From Candidatus Parcubacteria bacterium (lineage in GTDB: Bacteria; Patescibacteriota; Patescibacteriia; CAIXNZ01), in contig JAPLYG010000013.1 of NCBI GenBank assembly GCA_026395685.1, forward strand, positions 64,387 to 107,088: a stretch of 42,702 nt of DNA, in the 5' to 3' direction. Made by a program: the position numbers and the translations under genes. Every line of letters starts with the position of its first letter. The stretch's first letter is position 1. Under the pieces are notes generated by a model. It did no database searches. It was given only the letters and a program-made list of their open reading frames with translations, and was not told the origin of the DNA. This document shows positions 3,520-13,707 of the stretch, in pieces.

Positions 3520-6300
3520 ATGAACGGTGAAAAAACAATATTACGACAATTTTTTCAAAATTTTCTCGCTCAAGAAAAAAAGAAGGAGGATATCAGCGAG
3601 GAATATTTGAGTTTTTTAAAAATTTTATGGAGTGGTTTCGATGATATTATCTCAAGAAATAAGAATCAAAGGAAGGTTTATATAATCGAGCAGATTGAAA
3701 GATTCTTAAACGATGATAAATTTAAACAAAAAGTGAATACTATAGAATTGCCAGAGCACAATGAAGTCGCCCTTTTAGAAGGAATAGGTACACCAAGAAT
3801 TAAATTAAATAATATACAGCTTGTAAATTTTAGAGGTTTTCAGGCCAATAAAGACGGCAAGGGACGTCTAATTGAATTTAATGAAAAGGCAACTCTTATT
3901 TTTGCTCCAAATGGAGGCGGAAAAACAAGTCTTTGCGAGGCTTTAGAATGGACACTAACTGGTGATTCATCAGAACGTGAAGAGAGAAAAGCAGATCCTG
4001 TTGGTATGTATTTTCAGAATAATTACCAGGAAAGTCCAAAGTATAATACGACTAAATTGTCTATAAATGGGGATTCTACTTTGATTCCTAGTCAAATATT
4101 TGATAGATGCTTTTTAGAAAAAAATCGAATTGAAAAATTCGCAAAATTAGCAATTCAACCCAGTGCTGAAATTCAGGAAGTACTAGGAGAACTCTTTGGG
4201 TTTTCTGATATTGTAAATTTTTTCAAAGAATTTGGCCAAGACATATCTCCTACTGATAAAGAAAAGAATCAGCCTGAACGAGAAAATTGGAGAATTTGGT
4301 TAAACTGGAATACGAAAAAAATTGATCTTGAAAAATCTATAGAGGAAGCTAAGAAAGAAGAAGTAGATGCTATTAATGAACTTAACAAATTAATTGGGGA
4401 TAAAAGTTATGAAGATAAAAAAAACGAGATAGAAGAAAGTGGGAAAAAGCTCAAGGAAGAGCTTAATGCACTGGGAAAAGATTTTAGTATTACTTTTTCA
4501 GCTAAAGACTTTGTCGAAAAAGTAAAATCTTTTCTAAATAAAATAGCAGAATGGAAAAAATTAAATAAAAATATAAACGAAAATGCTCAAAAACTAGATT
4601 TTGAAAACCTTTTTCAGTCTGCAAATATTATCTTTAAATCCTATAAAGACAATAAATGCCCACTCTGTGATACTCCATTTGATCAAAGTGGAGGAATATT
4701 CAAGCGATCCGGCGTTGTGATCGATCCTCGTAAGAAGACCAGCAGTGAATTAAAAAAACTCAAACAATTATCCGACTGGAAAAATGAAATAGCAAAATTA
4801 GAAGGAGATTTAAAAGGGTTTAGTTTTAGATCAATTAGAGACGATTGGCAGAAAATTCAGCTTAATCTATTAGATGACAACTGGCAGGGTATTGCTGGGA
4901 ATAAAGAAGAGAAAATAATATTACCCGTTATAGACTTTAATACTCTCGAATTAAAAATTGACAATAAGATAAGTAGCTACCTTGATGAGTGTGAAAAAAT
5001 TTTTTCCAATGATTTTTCCGCCCTATCTAATTTAGAAAAGATTATTTTAGATTATCAAAAAAATAAACAGGAAGTTCTTAAATTAAAGCCAGAAAAGGAA
5101 TTAAAAATCAATAAACTTCGAGAGGAATTAAGAAAACTATTAGATCAAAATAATAATCTCACGATTAAGCAAAAAATCAGAAAAGATAATGAAATAAAAT
5201 TGCAAAAAATTTTAGAACAAACTAATAATGCAAAGAGTTTTGTAAATTTAATAAATATTTATTCTTCTGACTTTTATTTATCAATTCAACTATTTCAATC
5301 GAGTTCGCTTTTAAAAGAAGGAGTCGATATAGACGAATATTTAACTGGATTTTATAAAGCGCTAAATCTCTATGATCAAGACAAAGAAAAGGTAAAGGAA
5401 ATTCATTTCCCAAAGAGTACTCAAGATCAATTTTGTGTTGTTTATCTCGATGACGAAAATAAAAATTGTAATGCCTTACACAGATTAAGCGAAGGGCATT
5501 TAAAAACCTTGGGATTGGCTGCCCTTTTAGCGCGAGCGATTAAATACTCATCCCCTATATTGATATTTGACGATGCTATTAATGCAATAGATTCAGATCA
5601 CCGAGATAATATAGCATTCCTACTATCAAATAATTTTTCTAATGAAAATGGGATAGAGGCATTTGGGGATAAATGGGATAAGGTTAAAAATTACTTAAAT
5701 GAGTGTCAATTTATTATTACATCTCATGATAGATTTTTTGATGAAAAAATTGCCAATTTGTTTAATAAAGAAAATCAGAAACGGTATGTTTTGTACTCCG
5801 GTAAAAATGGAGTGGATTTTTGTGAAAAAGGAAATCCCGCAAATTTTGAAGGAAAAATTGAGTATTTTCTAAGGCCAGAAATTCAAGACATACGGTCAGC
5901 TATTTTTTATTGCCGTATTTGGTTAGAAGAACTATTATTAAATATTGCTATAAACTTTAGAAAACCAACCAATAATAAACAAATTGAATTTGAGAATATT
6001 ATAGATAAGAAAACAAGGCAATTAAAAAATCCGGAATTAATTACAATAATTGACCGATTGATATCAAACCTTAATAAGCCCGATACTCAGCCTGATCAAA
6101 AGAAGATAGCAAATTTATTGGAAGAAATTGGCAAGGAAAAGGAAGGTAAATATATATGGCTCTTTGAAATATTAAATCAAGAAAGCCATTATCGAAGATT
6201 CGATCATGTAAATATTTCGAATGCACCTACAAGCAAAGAGGTTGAGAATATATTTAATATAATCCAAAAAATAGAAAGTCTAAGTAATATTATAAAATAA
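3520..6300 (+). CDS. Rad50/SMC-like AAA ATPase with a zinc-hook-like CxxC
   Basis: A 926-residue ABC-type ATPase of the RecF/Rad50/SMC kind. After a roughly 100-residue N-terminal extension comes Walker A PNGGGKTS (130-137). A charged helical arm follows, then a single CPLC hook motif (380-383), a second helical arm, the ABC signature LSEG (656-659) and Walker B ILIFDD (680-685). SHDRFFDE, near 733, fits the H-loop. The roughly 140-residue C-terminal extension is helical and contains NQESHYRRFDH, which recalls degenerate HEPN-like ends of other SMC-type defence ATPases; this is a weak resemblance. Such ATPases load on DNA ends or unusual DNA and drive an effector. The DUF262/HNH/HEPN gene immediately downstream is the obvious partner, an arrangement comparable to Lamassu (SMC plus nuclease effector). 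Confidence 0.85.
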   Translation: MNGEKTILRQFFQNFLAQEKKKEDISEEYLSFLKILWSGFDDIISRNKNQRKVYIIEQIERFLNDDKFKQKVNTIELPEHNEVALLEGIGTPRIKLNNIQLVNFRGFQANKDGKGRLIEFNEKATLIFAPNGGGKTSLCEALEWTLTGDSSEREERKADPVGMYFQNNYQESPKYNTTKLSINGDSTLIPSQIFDRCFLEKNRIEKFAKLAIQPSAEIQEVLGELFGFSDIVNFFKEFGQDISPTDKEKNQPERENWRIWLNWNTKKIDLEKSIEEAKKEEVDAINELNKLIGDKSYEDKKNEIEESGKKLKEELNALGKDFSITFSAKDFVEKVKSFLNKIAEWKKLNKNINENAQKLDFENLFQSANIIFKSYKDNKCPLCDTPFDQSGGIFKRSGVVIDPRKKTSSELKKLKQLSDWKNEIAKLEGDLKGFSFRSIRDDWQKIQLNLLDDNWQGIAGNKEEKIILPVIDFNTLELKIDNKISSYLDECEKIFSNDFSALSNLEKIILDYQKNKQEVLKLKPEKELKINKLREELRKLLDQNNNLTIKQKIRKDNEIKLQKILEQTNNAKSFVNLINIYSSDFYLSIQLFQSSSLLKEGVDIDEYLTGFYKALNLYDQDKEKVKEIHFPKSTQDQFCVVYLDDENKNCNALHRLSEGHLKTLGLAALLARAIKYSSPILIFDDAINAIDSDHRDNIAFLLSNNFSNENGIEAFGDKWDKVKNYLNECQFIITSHDRFFDEKIANLFNKENQKRYVLYSGKNGVDFCEKGNPANFEGKIEYFLRPEIQDIRSAIFYCRIWLEELLLNIAINFRKPTNNKQIEFENIIDKKTRQLKNPELITIIDRLISNLNKPDTQPDQKKIANLLEEIGKEKEGKYIWLFEILNQESHYRRFDHVNISNAPTSKEVENIFNIIQKIESLSNIIK

Positions 6301-6336
6301 AATTTTAAAAATTATTATTAATAAATAGATTAAATT

Positions 6337-7491
6337 ATGCTTACCTCGAAAATCAAAGTTTTAAACGAAGAAAAAATCGCCAATATTATTTTAGATTTAG
6401 AACGCGGGAAATTAAAAATCCCCAGATTTCAGCGTCAATTCGTTTGGGAGCGGTCAAAAATTATTAAACTTTTAGATAGCATCTATCAGGAGTTTCCGAT
6501 CGGCAGTTTTTTTATTTGGGAAGCTGATCGGCAATATAGCAAATTTTTTAAGGATATTGCGGAGCTGGAATTACCCAAACCACAAAAATATTCAATGCTA
6601 GACTTTATCCTTGATGGACAGCAAAGAGTTACATCTCTATATGTGGTCATGAAAGGCAAGAAAGTTGGTAATATAGATTATAAACAAATTTGTTTTGATA
6701 TTCAGTTAGAGAAGTTTGTAATACGCAGAAGAAAGTTTAAATTGGGCGATTCTATAATTCCAGTATATGAAATGTTCGGCGACGATCATTTATCGATTTT
6801 TGCCAGCTTAGATTCGGAGAAACAAAAAGTATTTAATAAATGCGTCAATACTTTTACTAATTATCCCTTATCTATTATTAAAGTTACTGAAAAAGAGCTA
6901 AGCGATGCGATTGAAATATTTGAAAGAATTAATCAGGGCGGTAAAAGGCTTGGGATTTTTGACTTGGTAGTTGCTAGTACCTGGGGAGATGATTTTGATT
7001 TAAGACAAAAATATGAAGAGTTGGAAGGATTTTTAATTGAAAAGGGGTTTGGCAGAATTACTCCTGAGGTAGTATTGCACGCCGCCTCATTAATTATTAA
7101 GAATTATTGCCGTAAACAATATTTACTACAATTAACAAGGGATGACTTGAAAGATACTTGGCCAGACATAGAAGATGCCTTTAAACTAGCGGTAGATTAT
7201 TTATCAGCCAATTTAGGTGTAAAAATTTATGATTTCGCACCCTATCCCGCGATGATCTCATTATTAACTTATCTATTCTATAAAATCAAAGGCCATTCTA
7301 TCAATAGTAAAAACGCAGAATTAGTTCACCAATGGTTTTGGCAGTCAGCATTAGGCGAAAGATATACTAGATCTAGAGAAACAACAATGGAAGAAGACAG
7401 AAAGAAGTTTTTTGATAAATTATTGGCCGGTGAAGAAGTTAGAATCAAATATCCCATTGATTTATCAATTGAGAGATTAAAAAAGAGTTAA
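6337..7491 (+). CDS. DUF262 (GmrS/ParB-like NTPase) protein, first half of a split GmrSD-like gene
   Basis: A 384-residue DUF262 domain protein. IPRFQRQFVW (near 28-37) and FPIGSFFIWE lead to the invariant DGQQR (93-97), and FERINQGGKRLGIFDLV marks the C-terminal half of the domain. DUF262 is the NTP-binding subunit of the type IV restriction enzyme GmrSD and of BrxU. The frame stops at 7489-7491, just before the HNH part of the family, which continues in the -1 frame. The heptamer A_AAA_AAG occupies 7479-7485 in the correct phase. A tandem -1 slip there would give a fusion of about 670 residues. The gene follows the SMC-like ATPase by 36 nt. The break may be programmed, a mutation in the A6 run, or a sequencing error. 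Confidence 0.88.
   Translation: MLTSKIKVLNEEKIANIILDLERGKLKIPRFQRQFVWERSKIIKLLDSIYQEFPIGSFFIWEADRQYSKFFKDIAELELPKPQKYSMLDFILDGQQRVTSLYVVMKGKKVGNIDYKQICFDIQLEKFVIRRRKFKLGDSIIPVYEMFGDDHLSIFASLDSEKQKVFNKCVNTFTNYPLSIIKVTEKELSDAIEIFERINQGGKRLGIFDLVVASTWGDDFDLRQKYEELEGFLIEKGFGRITPEVVLHAASLIIKNYCRKQYLLQLTRDDLKDTWPDIEDAFKLAVDYLSANLGVKIYDFAPYPAMISLLTYLFYKIKGHSINSKNAELVHQWFWQSALGERYTRSRETTMEEDRKKFFDKLLAGEEVRIKYPIDLSIERLKKS
7479..7485 (+). other. Candidate -1 ribosomal frameshift heptamer A_AAA_AAG
   Basis: In the frame of the DUF262 gene the bases read TTA AAA AAG AGT TAA, so the third base of TTA plus the next two codons form A_AAA_AAG, the heptamer used in E. coli dnaX. The -1 frame is blocked upstream by TGA at 7470-7472, and the zero frame ends at 7489-7491, so any fusing shift must happen between 7473 and 7491. 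A GAGAG at 7471-7475 could act as an internal Shine-Dalgarno element, but it is closer than the usual ~10 nt. I found no strong stem-loop directly downstream. Confidence 0.5.
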
Positions 7492-7532
7492 GCGTAGGAA
7501 CTAAATCAGCTATTCGTAATGCGTTTTTTTGC

Positions 7533-8348
7533 ATGCTAGCCATTAGACAACCAAAACATTTCAAAAATAATAATAATATTGTTTTGGATTACAAGCTTTG
7601 CTCTGATTTTAACAATAAGGAACTGCATCATATTTTCCCCAAAGCATTTCTAAGACAAAATAAAGTGGCAAAAGCGAGTCGTAATGCCTTGATGAATTTT
7701 TGTTTTATTCCAGCTGAATTAAATAAAGAAATTTCCAAATCCAGCCCAGCTGATTACTTTAAGGAATTTAGCCAAATAAATCCAGAATTCAAAGATACAT
7801 TAAAGTCACATTTAATACCTACTGGAAGTTTTATTGATAATAATGATTATGATCAGTTTATTGAGACTAGAGCCAATTCAGTGCTGTCAGAATTTGAAAA
7901 TCTATGCAATACAAAAATAGCAAGACTGATGAGTAATGATAATAATAAAGCTGTTGATAAAATTGAGGACAAAATAAGGGAGATAATAGACCATGTATTA
8001 TCAAAAAAAGAAGGGTCAGATTATTGGAATAAATTTATACCGAGAGATATTATTGATGTTGTTAATAAAAAAGTTGACGGTTATTTAAGGAAGAACCCCG
8101 ATGTTTCCCCAACCGCTTTGAATGGTCGGAAGTTGTTAGACTTCTGCGATGTCATGGATTATTGCAAAATGATTTTGGTGAACTGGGATTTGTTTGAAAA
8201 ACATTTCGGAGCCAAATCAGAGATTGAAAAGAAATTTGTTAATTTGAAAGAGTATAGGAACGCAATTAAGCATAACCGAGAGATGGACTCTGTTTTGCGC
8301 AAAGAAGGCGAAGCCGCTGTTGAATGGTTTGATAAAACTATAAAATAA
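7533..8348 (+). CDS. HNH nuclease plus Swt1-type HEPN RNase domain, second half of the split gene
   Basis: This 271-residue reading frame starts with the ATG at 7533. The frame is open upstream to 7473 and encodes family-like sequence there (VGTKSAIRNAFF before the ATG), so the real N-terminus probably comes from frameshift fusion with the preceding gene. ELHHIFPK (residues 30-37) with the later NALMNFCFIP and N64 is the HNH-type nuclease core found at the C-terminus of DUF262/GmrD proteins. The C-terminal roughly 100 residues resemble the Swt1 HEPN domain and keep the catalytic RNxxxH motif (R242, N243, H247). The polypeptide could therefore cut DNA (HNH) and RNA (HEPN). The gene ends just before a strong terminator. 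Confidence 0.85.
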   Translation: MLAIRQPKHFKNNNNIVLDYKLCSDFNNKELHHIFPKAFLRQNKVAKASRNALMNFCFIPAELNKEISKSSPADYFKEFSQINPEFKDTLKSHLIPTGSFIDNNDYDQFIETRANSVLSEFENLCNTKIARLMSNDNNKAVDKIEDKIREIIDHVLSKKEGSDYWNKFIPRDIIDVVNKKVDGYLRKNPDVSPTALNGRKLLDFCDVMDYCKMILVNWDLFEKHFGAKSEIEKKFVNLKEYRNAIKHNREMDSVLRKEGEAAVEWFDKTIK

Positions 8349-8360
8349 TAAATACAGTAT

Positions 8361-8390
8361 CAAAAAATCCTACTTTTGTAGGATTTTTTG
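8361..8390. terminator. Bidirectional rho-independent terminator
   Basis: A perfect 13-bp stem (first arm CAAAAAATCCTAC) with a TTTT loop has A and T runs on its two sides. It can terminate the plus-strand defence cluster and the minus-strand DUF2779 gene that converges on it. Confidence 0.9.
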
Positions 8391-8402
8391 TTTGAGTATG
8401 AT

Positions 8403-9863
8403 TTATATCTTTTGTAAAAATTTAAGTATTTCCACCATGGCCATTGTATCCAAACCGCAATAATCAGTCATGTCCTTGTAAAGTTTATCTTTCTCTTTTT
8501 TATCAATATCGGGATCAATTAAAGTTTTCCAGCTGTCAGAAGCAGTTCCGCCTTCCTGAATATTTAAATTCTTGTACGATAATTTAGGAATAAGTACTGG
8601 CAAAACTTTTTTAATTGAAGCGCTCCCGTGGAAATTCTTATGGACATAATAGCCTTTGCGGAAAATGAGCATCAGATCGTACATTGAATCGTTGACTGAT
8701 TTTAAGAAGCTGGCATATTGAGGAGCCCGTTTGGCCATTTCACTGTTACAGCCTTTTTCAAACATGGCATTCCATGAAATGGCAGTGCCTTTCTTGGATA
8801 TAAATTTTCTAAGAGCTTTTAATAAATCTTCCGTAGGATCTTTAAAGTCTTTGGCCAGAAATTCATAATGATTCAGCTTTCCGCCCGGCTGTTCCTGCAC
8901 ATGCAAGGAAAACTGGAAGACAATGCGCTGGTAAGGCTTGTAGCCGTCAAAAAGCGGGATAGCAGGGCTGAATGTCTCGTAATCAAGAAAATAGAGCGGA
9001 TATTTGAGATTGTTTAGGTCTTCTTTGATTTTATCAGGCTCAATATGGACTTTGTTATGCTTTACCACATGTCGGTGCATTAAAGCTCGGTCTCTGGTCA
9101 AAAAGTCCTCTGGAATATCCTTAATTTCTAAAATATCTTGATCTAGGAGCTCATTTAGCTTTTTTTCGCTTAAACCGCAGGCAATGCTGTAAATTGAGTG
9201 GTCTGGCACGTCTTTCCAGCAATAATCAATGAATGGGCATTCGTAGGGGCTGCTACACTGCTTTAGGATCCTTATTTGGGGTTCTTTGGGTGACTTAATC
9301 AGTTTGAGAGCGGATTCAATGTTTAGCTTGATTTCGCTGATCAAATTTCTGACATCAGATGAAATATCTTCAATCTTTAATAACTCTTTAGGATCAATTT
9401 TGCCTTTTCTGACATAGCTAGTATTGATTACAACCAAATGAGTCTTGCCGATTTTATAGCCGGCTGATTCAAAACAGATTTTCTGAAAGGACAAGTCAAT
9501 GACATGGATATCTTTAACTTGGGTAGAACTTTTAACTTCGTAAATATCCCACTTATCGCCGTTCTTAACAAAAATATCAGCCATAGCGTAAAGGCTGTTA
9601 GCCATGGCTGTAGCTTGAAAAATAACCTTATTGCCGTCTTTAATCAGCTTATCAGTATTTTTCTTGGCGGTTTCATAAAGCCCCTCTGCTTTAACGCCTT
9701 TGGGAAACAGTTTTCTGGCATAATCTTCAACTTCATAACCTTCGTCAAAGATTCTTTGCAAGGATTCGTCTGTTTCTTCAGGCAACAAATCACGGCGGAA
9801 TTTATACAGCCAAAGGTATTTGTAGCACTGAATATATTTTAGGAATTGAGATTTGGATAACAT
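8403..9863 (-). CDS. DUF2779 protein: Cas4-like PD-(D/E)XK nuclease fused to DEDDy exonuclease
   Basis: A 486-residue two-domain protein. Residues 1-220 look like a Cas4/RecB-type nuclease: D97, then E109-V-K111, framed by one N-terminal cysteine (C13) and three later ones (C203, C209, C215), the usual layout of a 4Fe-4S cluster closing a RecB-like fold. Residues 290-486 carry an RNase H-fold exonuclease with D294-Y-E296 and the terminal Y468xxxD472 pair of the DEDDy class. DUF2779 proteins have no settled role; repair or defence processing of DNA ends is plausible. The gene lies 15 nt downstream of another nuclease gene on the same strand, implying a shared transcript starting near 11,140. 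Confidence 0.85.
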   Translation of the reverse strand: MLSKSQFLKYIQCYKYLWLYKFRRDLLPEETDESLQRIFDEGYEVEDYARKLFPKGVKAEGLYETAKKNTDKLIKDGNKVIFQATAMANSLYAMADIFVKNGDKWDIYEVKSSTQVKDIHVIDLSFQKICFESAGYKIGKTHLVVINTSYVRKGKIDPKELLKIEDISSDVRNLISEIKLNIESALKLIKSPKEPQIRILKQCSSPYECPFIDYCWKDVPDHSIYSIACGLSEKKLNELLDQDILEIKDIPEDFLTRDRALMHRHVVKHNKVHIEPDKIKEDLNNLKYPLYFLDYETFSPAIPLFDGYKPYQRIVFQFSLHVQEQPGGKLNHYEFLAKDFKDPTEDLLKALRKFISKKGTAISWNAMFEKGCNSEMAKRAPQYASFLKSVNDSMYDLMLIFRKGYYVHKNFHGSASIKKVLPVLIPKLSYKNLNIQEGGTASDSWKTLIDPDIDKKEKDKLYKDMTDYCGLDTMAMVEILKFLQKI

Positions 9864-9878
9864 AAGCTTGTTTATATA

Positions 9879-10952
9879 TTAACGCAGTTTCTTCAAAACA
9901 TCCATAACCCCCGACTTCTCTAATTCAAGCAGAGAGTTATAGATATATGTAATCGCCTGTTTATCACCCAACTTTATAAATATTGAGAATTTAAACCTTT
10001 TTAATAATGACCAGCCTGGCTCCTTGTCTTTCTCGAAATATTTATTATTTATTTTTATATTCTTGATTGGCTTTCTGATTTTTTCATAATTAGCCTTGGG
10101 ATATGTGAATATTCCCTGATAATAAGCCAATCCTTCTCCAAAGCTTTCAAATTCTCCCTTCCGCCAAAGTTCAAATCCAAAATATAATTGTTTACTCCAT
10201 CGCCATTCAGGCCTGCCAAGAATTAAGTAAAATACCTTATTACGATGATCATACTTGGGAGTATTAAACATTGGACTCAATTTATGTTTTTTACAAAATG
10301 AGATGATCCGCTTATCACGATTAACTTCTTTTAAAAAATCCAGTAGTTTATCAAAAAAATCTAAAAAGTTAGTTTTAGAAAGAGCAATGTCTTTATTATT
10401 AAAGCCCTGAAACGGTTGCATATCTAAATTTTTCATAAATTTTAAAAAGTTAGAGATTAAATAGGTTTTAGTTTTGTCAATTTTAGTATTATCTAAATAA
10501 TTATTAATTATCCTATAAATTTCAAACCATTCAAACTGCCCTAAAAAATTATTCTTGTGGCTTTTAACTTGTATATTGCATTGATCTTTAGTAATAAAAC
10601 AAACATAGCCATTATTCATTCGTAAATATTTTTCAACTTGTCCGAAGTCATCCTCGGTATCATCATCAAGATAGCGATTCTCGTGAGCATTGACCTTAAC
10701 CTCAATAAAAATTTTCTTATAATTTTTATCGGTAATTTGTAGGTCAATAATTGAATTGCCGTACCTCACTTGGCTTTCTAAAATAAAAGGAGCTCTAAAT
10801 ATTAGATCTCCACTGATATATTTTACGAATTTATTTAATAGTTCAGAATCAGAAGACAAAACAATTTTTAAACTTTCTGTAAAAAAATTCTCCGCAGGAG
10901 TTATTTCCGGTTGAGGCTTGTATTTATATAAAGTAGTGAAAATATTCTCCAT
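9879..10952 (-). CDS. PD-(D/E)XK nuclease superfamily protein
   Basis: A 357-residue protein, taking the ATG at 10950-10952. The frame stays open further upstream, but that part translates the structured leader RNA and is not protein-like. The N-terminal 115 residues show a textbook restriction-fold core: E59, D70 in NSIIDLQI, E84-V-K86 in FIEVKV, and Q105 in DFGQVEKYL. The opening ITPAENFFTESL is common in this nuclease group. The C-terminal 240 residues contain Trp- and Lys-rich segments of unknown function, possibly target recognition. It is the first gene of a two-nuclease operon, and its start lies about 24 nt after a candidate attenuator. It could be a lone restriction-type defence nuclease; the substrate is unknown. 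Confidence 0.75.
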   Translation of the reverse strand: MENIFTTLYKYKPQPEITPAENFFTESLKIVLSSDSELLNKFVKYISGDLIFRAPFILESQVRYGNSIIDLQITDKNYKKIFIEVKVNAHENRYLDDDTEDDFGQVEKYLRMNNGYVCFITKDQCNIQVKSHKNNFLGQFEWFEIYRIINNYLDNTKIDKTKTYLISNFLKFMKNLDMQPFQGFNNKDIALSKTNFLDFFDKLLDFLKEVNRDKRIISFCKKHKLSPMFNTPKYDHRNKVFYLILGRPEWRWSKQLYFGFELWRKGEFESFGEGLAYYQGIFTYPKANYEKIRKPIKNIKINNKYFEKDKEPGWSLLKRFKFSIFIKLGDKQAITYIYNSLLELEKSGVMDVLKKLR

Positions 10953-10971
10953 ATAATATGAAAATTTTTGG

Positions 10972-11140
10972 AAAACAAAAAGGGTCCCACGTCGGTGGCA
11001 CCCTTTCGGGCGCCCAACATCCTTTCGGATATTGACCATTCGCATAGTGCCGATCATGAGACCGTCTTTATGCGAATGGATTTGAGCGACCATGCCCCAA
11101 GGACGAATCCTCGAGGTTTAGGTCTAAATTGTATGAAATT
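10972..11140 (-). ncRNA. Candidate riboswitch/attenuator leader of the nuclease operon
   Basis: This is a GC-rich block in AT-rich surroundings. Read on the minus strand it folds into consecutive hairpins: 9 bp with a UUCG loop (11116-11095), an 11-bp stem with a long inner part (11079-11036), 7 bp with a GAAA loop (11033-11016), and 7 bp with a GAAA loop (11014-10997). The 3' arm of the last hairpin is also the 5' arm of a terminator (11004-10981: 10-bp stem with one G-G mismatch, CGAC loop) followed by TTTTTGTTTT. The two pairings exclude each other, as in transcription-attenuating riboswitches. The nuclease gene starts just downstream. I do not recognise a known riboswitch class. Confidence 0.6.
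10976..11004 (-). terminator. Intrinsic terminator within the leader RNA
   Basis: The arms AGGGUGCCAC and GUGGGACCCU enclose a CGAC loop with one internal G-G mismatch, and a U-rich tract follows on the minus strand. It overlaps the preceding GAAA hairpin, so only one of the two can form. Confidence 0.75.
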
Positions 11141-11146
11141 ACTGAT

Positions 11147-11175
11147 ATTATAGCTTAGAAACCTTAATAAGTAAA
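11147..11175 (-). promoter_or_regulatory. Promoter for the leader RNA and nuclease operon
   Basis: On the minus strand, TTTACT (11175-11170), a 17-bp spacer and a perfect TATAAT (11152-11147) predict a transcription start near 11,140, directly upstream of the folded leader. Confidence 0.6.
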
Positions 11176-11343
11176 GCGATTTGCCAACAAGTTATCTACT
11201 CCAAGGCCAAGAAAAGTTATCCACAGCTAACGAAGCAAAATGACAAAATTACAACATAATAACATGAAAAAATAGATATTTTGACTAAAATTAGGCAAAA
11301 ATTATGGGCTTCTTAACGCTTTTTGGCGCTTTGCCCGCAATTC

Positions 11344-11372
11344 TTGACAAATACGAAAATAGCTAGCATAAT
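11344..11372 (+). promoter_or_regulatory. Strong sigma70-type promoter
   Basis: TTGACA (11344-11349), a 17-bp spacer and CATAAT (11367-11372). It faces the phage-like module. Transcription would begin near 11,380 and cross about 300 non-coding bases before the first methyltransferase gene. Confidence 0.7.
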
Positions 11373-11379
11373 TAATTAA

Positions 11380-11699
11380 GAGAATGTTCTTTCAACAATT
11401 GAATATTTAGCCACCAAAACAAAAAGAAAAGAAGTCTGCATCAAAGAGATCGCGGGCGAAGAGTTAAAATGAGATTAAAATTTATGACTAATTAACTAAA
11501 AGTAACAGTAAAAGTATTAGTATTAGCCGTTCGATATTTTGGCAAAATATCGAATCAATAAAATTATAATTTTTTTATTATAATTTTAGAATTTTAATCA
11601 TCCGAATTAGGTTTTAACTATTCGCTTGCGATTTTTTTATTATATCAAAAGCGTCATCCTAATTTAGATGACGCTTTTAATTTAATAACCTCTAAATCT
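11380..11699 (+). other. Non-coding leader region with hairpins before the phage-like module
   Basis: I see no convincing gene here. Downstream of the promoter, an open stretch ending at the TGA of a CGAAGAGTTAAAATGA segment encodes about 29 protein-like residues but has no usual start codon, so it may be a gene remnant. Two further elements follow: a perfect 10-bp inverted repeat with a GGC loop (about 11530-11552), and an AT-only repeat around 11567-11590. The region ends in a terminator-like hairpin (11647-11678). It could be a small RNA or a long regulatory leader. Confidence 0.4.
11647..11678 (+). terminator. Terminator-like hairpin before the methyltransferase gene
   Basis: A perfect 12-bp stem (AAAAGCGTCATC and its complement) with an 8-nt loop ends in TTTT. 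It lies 22 nt before the start codon, so it would act as an attenuator or end a short RNA from the promoter at 11,344. Confidence 0.65.
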
Positions 11700-12986
11700 A
11701 TGTTAGAAAAAGACCTCCAAAAACAAAAAATCAAAATCGATTATGTACCGATTGAAAAGATCAATCCTTCGGCATATAACCCAAGAAAGATTTCTTCTAA
11801 ACAAGAAGAAGATCTTACAATAAGTATCCAAAAGTTTAATTTAGTCGACCCCTTTATAGTAAACGGCCACAAAGGCAGAGAGTTCAATCTTGTAGGCGGA
11901 CACCAGCGTTATAAAATTTGCCAGAAGCTGGGATATAAGGAAGTGCCTGTTGTGTGGGTTGATTTGAACGAGGCAAAGGAAAGAGAGCTCAACTTGAGGC
12001 TAAATGCCAATACAGGCGAATGGGATTTTGAAATGCTTAAGGATTTTAAAGTTGAACTGCTTTTGGATGTCGGTTTTACTGATACCGAACTTTCAGATAT
12101 CTGGGATGATGTCTTGGGCGTGGACAATGATGATTTTGATATTGAAAAAAATCTCAAAGAAGCCGAAAAAACCCAGATTAAAACTGGAGATCTGTTTAAG
12201 CTTGGTGACCATTACCTGCTCTGCCAAGATTCCACTTATTCAGACAACGTCCAAAAGCTGGTTGGCAATAATAAGATGGACATGATTGATGTGGATTGTC
12301 CATATAATATAGGACTTGATTACAATAAAGGAATCGGTGGAAAGAATAATTACGGCGGTGAAGTTAATGACAAAAAATCAAAGGAAGAATACAAGGAATT
12401 TGTCTGGCAACTCATCAATCGCGGCTTATCCGCAGGGAAAAAAGACCTGCATGTTTTCTTCTGGTGTGATGAGAAATATGTTGGCATGCTTCAGGAACTG
12501 TATGAACTGGCGGGTATCAAAGAAAAAAGAACCTGCCTGTGGATTAAGGATAATCAAAATCCGACACCCCAAATTGCCTTTTCCAAGGTGACGGAATTTT
12601 GTCTTTATGGTTCAGTCGGTAATCCGTACTTATCCGATAAGATTAAAAATCTAAATGAAGTACTCAATAAGGAAGTTGCAACGGGCAATCGGTTACAAGA
12701 CGACATCTTGGATTTATTAAATATATGGCTTGTAAAGAGACTTCCTGCCACCGAATATTTTCATCCAACCAGCAAACCGCCAGCACTTTATGAAAAAGCA
12801 TTAAGGCGTTGCACCAAGCCAGGCGATGCAGTACTGGATTTATGCGCGGGTTCGGGAAGTATATTAATAGCGTGCGAACAACTTAAGCGTCGAGCTTTCC
12901 TTTGCGAAATCTCACCAGTTTTTACTCAACTAATAATAAATCGATATGAGAAATTTTCAAACAACAAAGCACAAAAAATCAATTAA
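11700..12986 (+). CDS. ParB-domain DNA methyltransferase (phage-type, beta class)
   Basis: A 428-residue fusion. Residues 1-110 form a ParB/Sulfiredoxin-like domain (INPSAYNPR, then GGHQRY at 66-71). The rest is an N4/N6 DNA methyltransferase with catalytic motif IV DCPY (199-202), and SAM-binding motif I LDLCAGSGS comes after it near 379-387, the order of beta-class enzymes. Such ParB-methylase proteins are typical of prophages, next to the terminase genes, where they modify phage DNA. Its end overlaps the next methyltransferase by 41 nt, indicating translational coupling. DCPY instead of DPPY is an allowed variant. Target sequence unknown. Confidence 0.88.
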   Translation: MLEKDLQKQKIKIDYVPIEKINPSAYNPRKISSKQEEDLTISIQKFNLVDPFIVNGHKGREFNLVGGHQRYKICQKLGYKEVPVVWVDLNEAKERELNLRLNANTGEWDFEMLKDFKVELLLDVGFTDTELSDIWDDVLGVDNDDFDIEKNLKEAEKTQIKTGDLFKLGDHYLLCQDSTYSDNVQKLVGNNKMDMIDVDCPYNIGLDYNKGIGGKNNYGGEVNDKKSKEEYKEFVWQLINRGLSAGKKDLHVFFWCDEKYVGMLQELYELAGIKEKRTCLWIKDNQNPTPQIAFSKVTEFCLYGSVGNPYLSDKIKNLNEVLNKEVATGNRLQDDILDLLNIWLVKRLPATEYFHPTSKPPALYEKALRRCTKPGDAVLDLCAGSGSILIACEQLKRRAFLCEISPVFTQLIINRYEKFSNNKAQKIN

Positions 12987-13707
12987 GTACGGCGACATTA
13001 TAACCTTAGGTCGGCATAAATTGCTTTGTGGTGATGCCTGCGACAAGGATTTAATTGCTAAGTTCTTAAAAGGTGTCAAAATTAATCAGGTGCTGTGCGA
13101 TGTGCCATATGCTGTGGAGGCGGTTGAATCCAAAAAAAGTTTTAAGTCCAAACTGGGCAATAATAAGATAATCGCCAATGATCAGTATCAGTCTGACGAG
13201 GAGTATGCCAATTTCACCCAAAAGTGGCTTGATGCAGTGAAACCGTACTTAGCGACTAAAAACACGGCTTACATTTTCAACTCAGATAAAATGATATTCG
13301 CTTTAAGACAAGGGGTGCTAAATGCTGGCTTTCATTTTTCTCAGCTTTTAGTTTGGGTTAAATCACAACCTGTGATTGGAAGATTGGACTATCAGCCTCA
13401 GCATGAATTGATTGCATATTGCTGGTTTGGCAGACACCAATTTTTAAAGTCTAAGGATAAAAGCGTTATTTTTTACCCTAAGCCGTCAAAAAGCCTTTTA
13501 CACCCGACCATGAAACCAGTTGGTCTATTAAGGAGACTTATTCTTAATAACACCAAAATCGGAGATATTGTTTATGATTGTTTTTCTGGCAGCGGTAGTA
13601 CTTTAATCGCGACCGAACAGACAAAAAGGATCTGTTATGCTGTGGAATTGGACACCGAATATTGTCAGACAATAGTTGATAGATATAATTCACTAACCAA
13701 AAAATAA
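12946..13707 (+). CDS. Second DNA methyltransferase (beta class), overlapping the first
   Basis: A 253-residue stand-alone N4/N6 methyltransferase. Motif IV is DVPY (52-55) and motif I is DCFSGSGST (211-219), again in beta-class order; HPTMKPVGLLRRLI before motif I is the usual helix of this family. It begins inside the end of the ParB-methyltransferase gene, in another frame, and stops 3 nt before the terminase small subunit gene. It has no ParB domain and no paired restriction gene next to it, so it is more likely an anti-restriction or packaging-related modification enzyme than part of a restriction system. Confidence 0.87.
   Translation: MRNFQTTKHKKSIKYGDIITLGRHKLLCGDACDKDLIAKFLKGVKINQVLCDVPYAVEAVESKKSFKSKLGNNKIIANDQYQSDEEYANFTQKWLDAVKPYLATKNTAYIFNSDKMIFALRQGVLNAGFHFSQLLVWVKSQPVIGRLDYQPQHELIAYCWFGRHQFLKSKDKSVIFYPKPSKSLLHPTMKPVGLLRRLILNNTKIGDIVYDCFSGSGSTLIATEQTKRICYAVELDTEYCQTIVDRYNSLTKK

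Follow-up and report, generated by a model that had tools for sequence, protein, structure and literature searches.

Comparative analysis of the LOOT RNA suggests an mRNA leader with two mutually exclusive folds in tiny uncultured bacteria of the Patescibacteriota

The window, a stretch of 42,702 nucleotides (nt) from contig JAPLYG010000013.1 of a Candidatus Parcubacteria bacterium (GCA_026395685.1), carries on its minus strand a promoter-like sequence, a leader composed of consecutive hairpins and, just downstream (ATG at 10952), a gene for a PD-(D/E)XK-like nuclease. These elements, together with the UUCG loop of hairpin P2 and the GAAA loops of hairpins P4 and P5, had been proposed in an initial annotation of the sequence, and all were found among the features listed here in the direction of transcription.

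11147 to 11175, minus strand: promoter-like TTTACT-17-TATAAT (10/12 consensus matches).
11125 to 11132, minus strand: ACAATTTA, the window's form of the ACAAY motif, conserved just upstream of LOOT.
10997 to 11124, minus strand: LOOT RNA (RF03000), helices P1 to P5, a full-length Rfam match.
11117 to 11122, minus strand: CCUAAA, 5' strand of an 11-nt-type GAAA tetraloop receptor in P1/P2 (type compared with the receptors in the available part of PMC11381326).
11095 to 11116, minus strand: P2 hairpin with UUCG loop (folding, alignment).
11090 to 11094, minus strand: CAUGG, receptor 3' strand (sequence, alignment).
11036 to 11079, minus strand: P3, a long hairpin with an internal loop (folding).
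11049 to 11072, minus strand: P3 side of the alternative helix P6 (duplex with 10974-10996, -24.9 kcal/mol; family-wide covariation).
11015 to 11034, minus strand: P4 hairpin, GAAA loop at 11023-11026 (folding, alignment).
10997 to 11014, minus strand: P5 hairpin, with a GAAA loop in the window and a variable loop family-wide; its 3' strand is common to the local terminator.
10975 to 11006, minus strand: local intrinsic-terminator-like hairpin of the P5 3' strand and segment D.
10974 to 10996, minus strand: segment D, the 3' partner of P6, with a U-tract at its end, beyond Rfam's LOOT model.
9879 to 10952, minus strand: gene 1, PD-(D/E)XK-like nuclease, 357 amino acids.
8403 to 9863, minus strand: gene 2, DUF2779 (PF11074, 7.2e-42) with an N-terminal Cas4/RecB-like nuclease domain (PF01930, 6.9e-5).

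The 128-nt leader RNA folds at -66.7 kcal/mol (z = -7.6), and none of 200 shuffled sequences was equally stable. A mechanically called open reading frame (ORF; 9879-11093) starts at 11093, inside the LOOT RNA, and the true start of gene 1 is likely 10952 instead. The product of this gene has only weak Pfam matches (SfsA, 0.013) and a predicted structure of low confidence (pLDDT 42), while residues D70, E84, K86, Q105 and Y109 are invariant in three homologues and are taken by us to be the PD-(D/E)XK motif. With the DUF2779 and Cas4-like domains of gene 2, the two-nuclease operon of the initial annotation is therefore plausible. Around this operon (3520-13707) lie genes for an AAA ATPase, a GmrSD_N protein, an HEPN_Swt1-like protein (a match below its curated cut-off) and two DNA methylases; considering the GmrSD_N, HEPN_Swt1 and methylase neighbors, the locus looks like a defence island.

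A covariance search against Rfam, which the initial annotation had recommended, assigned the leader to a known family, LOOT (RF03000), at 79.3 bits against a cut-off of 46.4 (E value of 1.8e-13 in the whole window; model positions 1-121 of 121). No other family exceeded its cut-off at the leader, including the validated riboswitch and T-box families in Rfam, and one further match, a tRNA, was located elsewhere in the window. The earlier statement that the leader matches no known riboswitch class thus holds, but the RNA itself had already been described, in a family without established function. Reportedly, the original description of LOOT is that of Weinberg and colleagues in 2017. Rfam classifies the family as 'Gene; sRNA'. 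In the available portions of three papers, LOOT is credited with about 43 base pairs in six helices and 28 'cross-covariations' (PMC7657543), serves as an example of a metagenomic family (PMC7779021) and is listed with two extra covarying pairs (PMC11701678); the passages of these portions that mention LOOT or RF03000 give no function.

Results revealed a LOOT match in 83 of 379 genomes of the window's phylum, 81 of them above the cut-off, compared with none above the cut-off in 14 control genomes. These 83 genomes harbored 127 copies, with up to seven per genome. Within the window's own family, LOOT occurred in 5 of 9 genomes, and the window's genome (1.24 Mb, 23 contigs) contained a second copy, located before a gene with a 67% identical product. 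In a species-representative collection, the conserved 3'-segment pattern was found in 26 stretches, whose titles named Patescibacteria lineages (21), only 'bacterium' (4) or Bathyarchaeota (1). The last contig is probably misbinned, because the upstream flank of its LOOT (L153:2333-2444) is almost identical to that of copy G136.

Flanking sequence was available for 124 of the 127 copies (all except G201, G115 and G170_C61), and 121 remained after three more could not be parsed. An alignment (A1) was built with MAFFT from 44 of the 124 copies, picked among the 60 best-scoring and each extended by 32 nt downstream. Covariation among homologues, the absence of which would have spoken against the initial annotation, was present: for P1, P2, P4 and P5 together with P6, 95.5% of 1347 alignment cells were paired, a level reached in 0 of 500 shuffles. 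P3 was misaligned by MAFFT in A1 and was checked via the RF03000 alignment and folding. Upstream of LOOT, a -10-like hexamer was detected at a distance of 13-50 nt in 80 of 121 copies (0.38 in shuffles). Within 30 nt upstream, 87 of 121 copies also had the ACAAY motif (0.10 in shuffles), which is absent from Rfam's LOOT model and whose first base is usually 7-16 nt from LOOT. This motif probably lies at the 5' end of the RNA, and some copies have a small extra hairpin in the interval before LOOT.

The most conserved residues point to a tertiary clamp. P1/P2 carries CCUAA(A/C)...(C/U)A(U/C)GG, which by its sequence is an 11-nt-type tetraloop receptor, and P4 carries GAAA, found in 121/121 copies, a count that is partly circular since P4 was located by its GAAA. 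In the 44 sequences of A1, two A residues of the P4 GAAA are invariant and the other two columns are conserved at ≥90%; invariant columns comprise receptor residues, these two adenines and one position at the base of P2, and at the 90% level these are joined by closing pairs, D and a single linker A. In contrast to P4, the loop of P5 varies (GAAA 41, GCAA 31, GTAA 14 and TTCG 8 of 121). The arrangement resembles the GAAA tetraloop/11-nt receptor module, and docking of the P4 loop in the LOOT receptor would follow by analogy. The reference receptor has G-U at positions 6/7, whereas LOOT mostly has A/C or C/U; nine copies have C/C there, as in CCUAAC_CAUGG, a variant that was measured as a working receptor according to the available part of PMC11381326. 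The conserved columns of A1 contain no obvious ligand pocket, a weak argument given that MAFFT misaligns part of P3.

LOOT occupies a regular position relative to genes. For 120 copies, 300 nt of room was available; 104 of these had on the same strand an ORF of ≥60 codons whose ATG lay 5-100 nt past LOOT (45-65 nt being typical), compared with 63 of 334 (19%) random intergenic points in the same loci. Divergent starts within 100 nt upstream showed no enrichment (22/121). At the level of sequence, this comparison places LOOT right before same-strand genes across the phylum, and the copies behave as putative cis-acting leaders. The counts disagree with a trans-acting sRNA, Rfam's type for LOOT, which would be expected to have no fixed link to the downstream gene.

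The genes that follow are diverse, mostly encoding membrane or secreted proteins, along with methylases and nucleases. The Pfam scan, covering 107 of 111 downstream proteins (first genes only), returned 89 families, led by Glucodextran_B, N6_N4_Mtase, SNase and zinc ribbons. Methyltransferases were also prominent according to PADLOC, and membrane-like segments, by a simple hydrophobicity count on proteins of ≥150 amino acids, were enriched (48/79 versus 118/543). In the window's family, one LOOT whose P3 is nearly the same stands before the gene of what we read as a zinc-ribbon protein, and a different LOOT stands before a gene presumably GmrSD-like. This diversity indicates a module placed before many genes rather than a nuclease-specific sensor, for which the initial annotation had argued too narrowly; homologues do lie away from this operon, which it would have counted against its reading, yet they still precede same-strand genes.

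RNAalifold on A1 predicted a helix, termed P6, that joins the P3 apex with segment D, a stretch of 20-25 nt just 3' of LOOT and directly after P5. Across 121 copies, the P3:D duplex averaged -27.3 kcal/mol for a copy's own D, compared with -17.9 kcal/mol when D was swapped with that of other genomes (0/5000 permutations), and the difference persisted with one copy per family (-28.8 versus -18.8; 0/10000; n = 47). On A1, which was not fitted to structure, the 12 pairs of P6 were formed in 94.7% of 524 cells; 11 of the 12 showed two-sided changes, and covariation was 0.603, compared with at most 0.171 when the strands were slid. The pairing belongs to the sense RNA, because G-U cells (114) far exceed A-C cells (7 of 524). 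Control duplexes were null for P1/P2:D (1778/3000) and P4:D (1694/3000) and nearly so for P3 with the sequence 100-130 nt downstream (290/3000), and the 30 nt upstream of LOOT showed no pairing signal with D, P3 or the post-D region, in a comparison whose mean energies were skewed by failed duplexes to the same extent for own and permuted sequences. Moreover, a copy's own D was the best partner of its P3 in 54 of 64 copies from multi-copy genomes (ties counted), and P6 was kept in the subgroup where D replaces the model's P5. A U-tract (at least 5 U in 8 nt) ended D in 119 of 121 copies (background, 0.52), and a subset of copies supported a separate hairpin in which D pairs with the stretch that follows (0/5000).

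The apical stem of P3 was itself supported (0/5000), with the stem chosen by folding, a choice that favors it. On average, 84% of its pairs share a base with P6, and the two are therefore mutually exclusive; comparison of the copies thus demonstrates two conserved, exclusive predicted structures, the P3 apical stem and P6. In pseudoknot-free folding of the window sequence, P3 stayed at every transcript length examined, which speaks against a switch to P6.

In a part of the family, the P3 strand recurs at the start codon. In 30 of 120 copies, a stretch of ≥9 nt from the 5' half of P3 was found again after D, compared with 1.6% after swapping, and the summed repeat lengths were reached in 0 of 10000 permutations. 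Since most of these repeats stop just a few nucleotides short of the ATG, the start region is a potential partner of the P3 3' strand; this pairing averaged -10.3 kcal/mol for a copy's own sequences and -7.9 kcal/mol for swapped ones (0/5000), with 32 of 120 copies in the best 5%. The signal was absent from coding and upstream controls and from the copies outside this 32/120 subset (4066/5000), and the repeat was thus rejected as a universal feature. The window's LOOT is without it. What is known is the LOOT family RF03000, whereas D with P6, the start-region repeat and the leader position lie beyond its Rfam model, which stops at P5 and cannot contain P6. The three are likewise absent where RF03000 is mentioned in the available portions of PMC7657543, PMC7779021 and PMC11701678.

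The initial annotation had instead centered on the P5 3' strand GGGUGCC, shared between P5 and a terminator; it overlooked the RF03000 match and the stronger alternative pairing of the P3 apex with D. In the window, this exclusion is real: the strand can form AAAGGGUGCCACCGACGUGGGACCCUUUUUGU (-16.8 kcal/mol; 27-nt terminator core, -15.0 kcal/mol, z = -3.7), and the P5/D terminator is part of the leader's minimum-free-energy fold once D is transcribed. A simple terminator scan of the window's leader found none and left this hairpin unflagged. Family-wide, the same exclusion is weak. A strong local P5/D hairpin occurred in 16 of 115 copies and is thus a feature added locally, not the mechanism of the family as a whole; the P5:D duplex was -5.87 kcal/mol for own and -5.50 kcal/mol for swapped sequences, with 78 of 5000 permutations reaching the former, and in some copies D directly follows P4 without a separate P5. 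As a family-wide switch between the P5 3' strand and the terminator, the candidate was rejected; energies were no better than swapped (66/200) and pairs slightly better (1/200), in a comparison that left out eight copies without a detected T-run or flank.

These comparisons suggest that LOOT sits at the front of mRNAs and may adopt two exclusive folds, which most likely switch the following gene on or off; the claim of the initial annotation for a riboswitch-like leader that acts in cis and has structures excluding each other is supported to this extent. We consider it probable that LOOT is a bistable mRNA leader acting in cis, with P3 as the ON and P6 as the OFF state and the choice biased by the P4 clamp, and the best reading is that such a leader controls transcription and sometimes translation. 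With P3 kept, RNA polymerase would read through and the start region would stay free. Should D invade P3, P6 would act as a long-range terminator at the U-tract of D and, in copies with the repeat, the freed P3 3' strand would cover the start region. The GAAA loop of P4, docked in the P1/P2 receptor, may clamp the base of P3 and bias the outcome. In the window, where the start-region repeat is missing and D and P5 can make a strong local terminator, control is therefore probably of transcription. It is uncertain what the OFF structure really looks like, as a full P6 of about 20 bp would be geometrically incompatible with an intact P3.

Like riboswitch and attenuator leaders, LOOT is a 5' leader of same-strand genes with a covarying fold, exclusive pairings and a U-tract. 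It differs in that its switch strand lies in a middle hairpin, P3, and recurs in part at the start codon of about one copy in four, and in that its most conserved residues form a putative tertiary clamp with no evident pocket. Cyclic di-AMP and cyclic di-GMP were rejected as ligands, since LOOT presence was not associated with the synthase genes (DAC, GGDEF; 8 versus 12.3 and 28 versus 29.1 expected). Neither gene was found in the window's genome by these searches.

The main rival keeps both structures and reverses their logic, with P6 as the ON state that masks D and the local P5/D terminator as the OFF state. The window fits this well, given the strength of its terminator and the place of that hairpin in the minimum-free-energy fold. 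Across the family, however, just 16 of 115 copies have such a hairpin, P5 and D coevolve weakly, copies with D directly after P4 would have no separate P5 to use, and wherever the start-region repeat exists, P6 would favor covering of the start codon; we therefore regard the reversed logic as unlikely. Less likely still is a stand-alone sRNA that has a promoter and terminator to itself and lies before a gene by chance. It agrees with the Rfam type and with the promoter-like sequence and U-tract, since termination would yield a discrete RNA of about 165 nt, but it leaves unexplained the excess of same-strand start codons 5-100 nt downstream (104/120 versus 19% of control points), the P3-strand repeat that ties LOOT to the start site and the copy-specific P3:D pairing within genomes.

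The patchy, multi-copy distribution, the occurrence on viral contigs and the presence of near-identical P3 before unrelated genes within one family would also suit a DNA-level site formed by LOOT and D, either a folded recombination site or an RNA-guided target, that spreads genes. Against this, P6 is rich in G-U on the sense strand (114/524) and nearly devoid of A-C (7), as is the case for a sense RNA, and the 25 Pfam families matched most often in the 107 downstream first-gene proteins included neither a recombinase nor a transposase, making such a site highly improbable. The bistable cis-acting leader, with P3 as ON and P6 as OFF, accordingly remains our preferred reading.

How genes are regulated in the Candidate Phyla Radiation has hardly been studied, and LOOT is present in about a fifth of the sampled genomes of the window's phylum. 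The orphan family thereby receives a proposed, testable function, that of a leader with a long alternative helix missing from the reference model and with a repeat of one of its strands at the start codon. Surface and nuclease genes may form a regulon marked by LOOT, and the proposal can be tested in vitro with no need for host culture. A bolder and rather doubtful version would make LOOT a widespread Candidate Phyla Radiation switch without a metabolite pocket, in which Mg2+- or temperature-dependent GAAA docking picks P3 or P6 and thereby sets termination and, via the P3 copy at the start codon, translation of an envelope-protein, methylase and nuclease regulon.

LOOT was also present on several IMG/VR contigs, one with a terminase gene. 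On viral contig L185 (2916-7071), a terminase and a reverse transcriptase (phrog_1423) accompany a LOOT copy before a nuclease-like gene, and the reverse transcriptase locus is possibly a diversity-generating system. In genome G096, contigs L087, L088 and L135 end exactly within LOOT copies, one of them at both ends, which suggests that assembly breaks where LOOT repeats are nearly identical.
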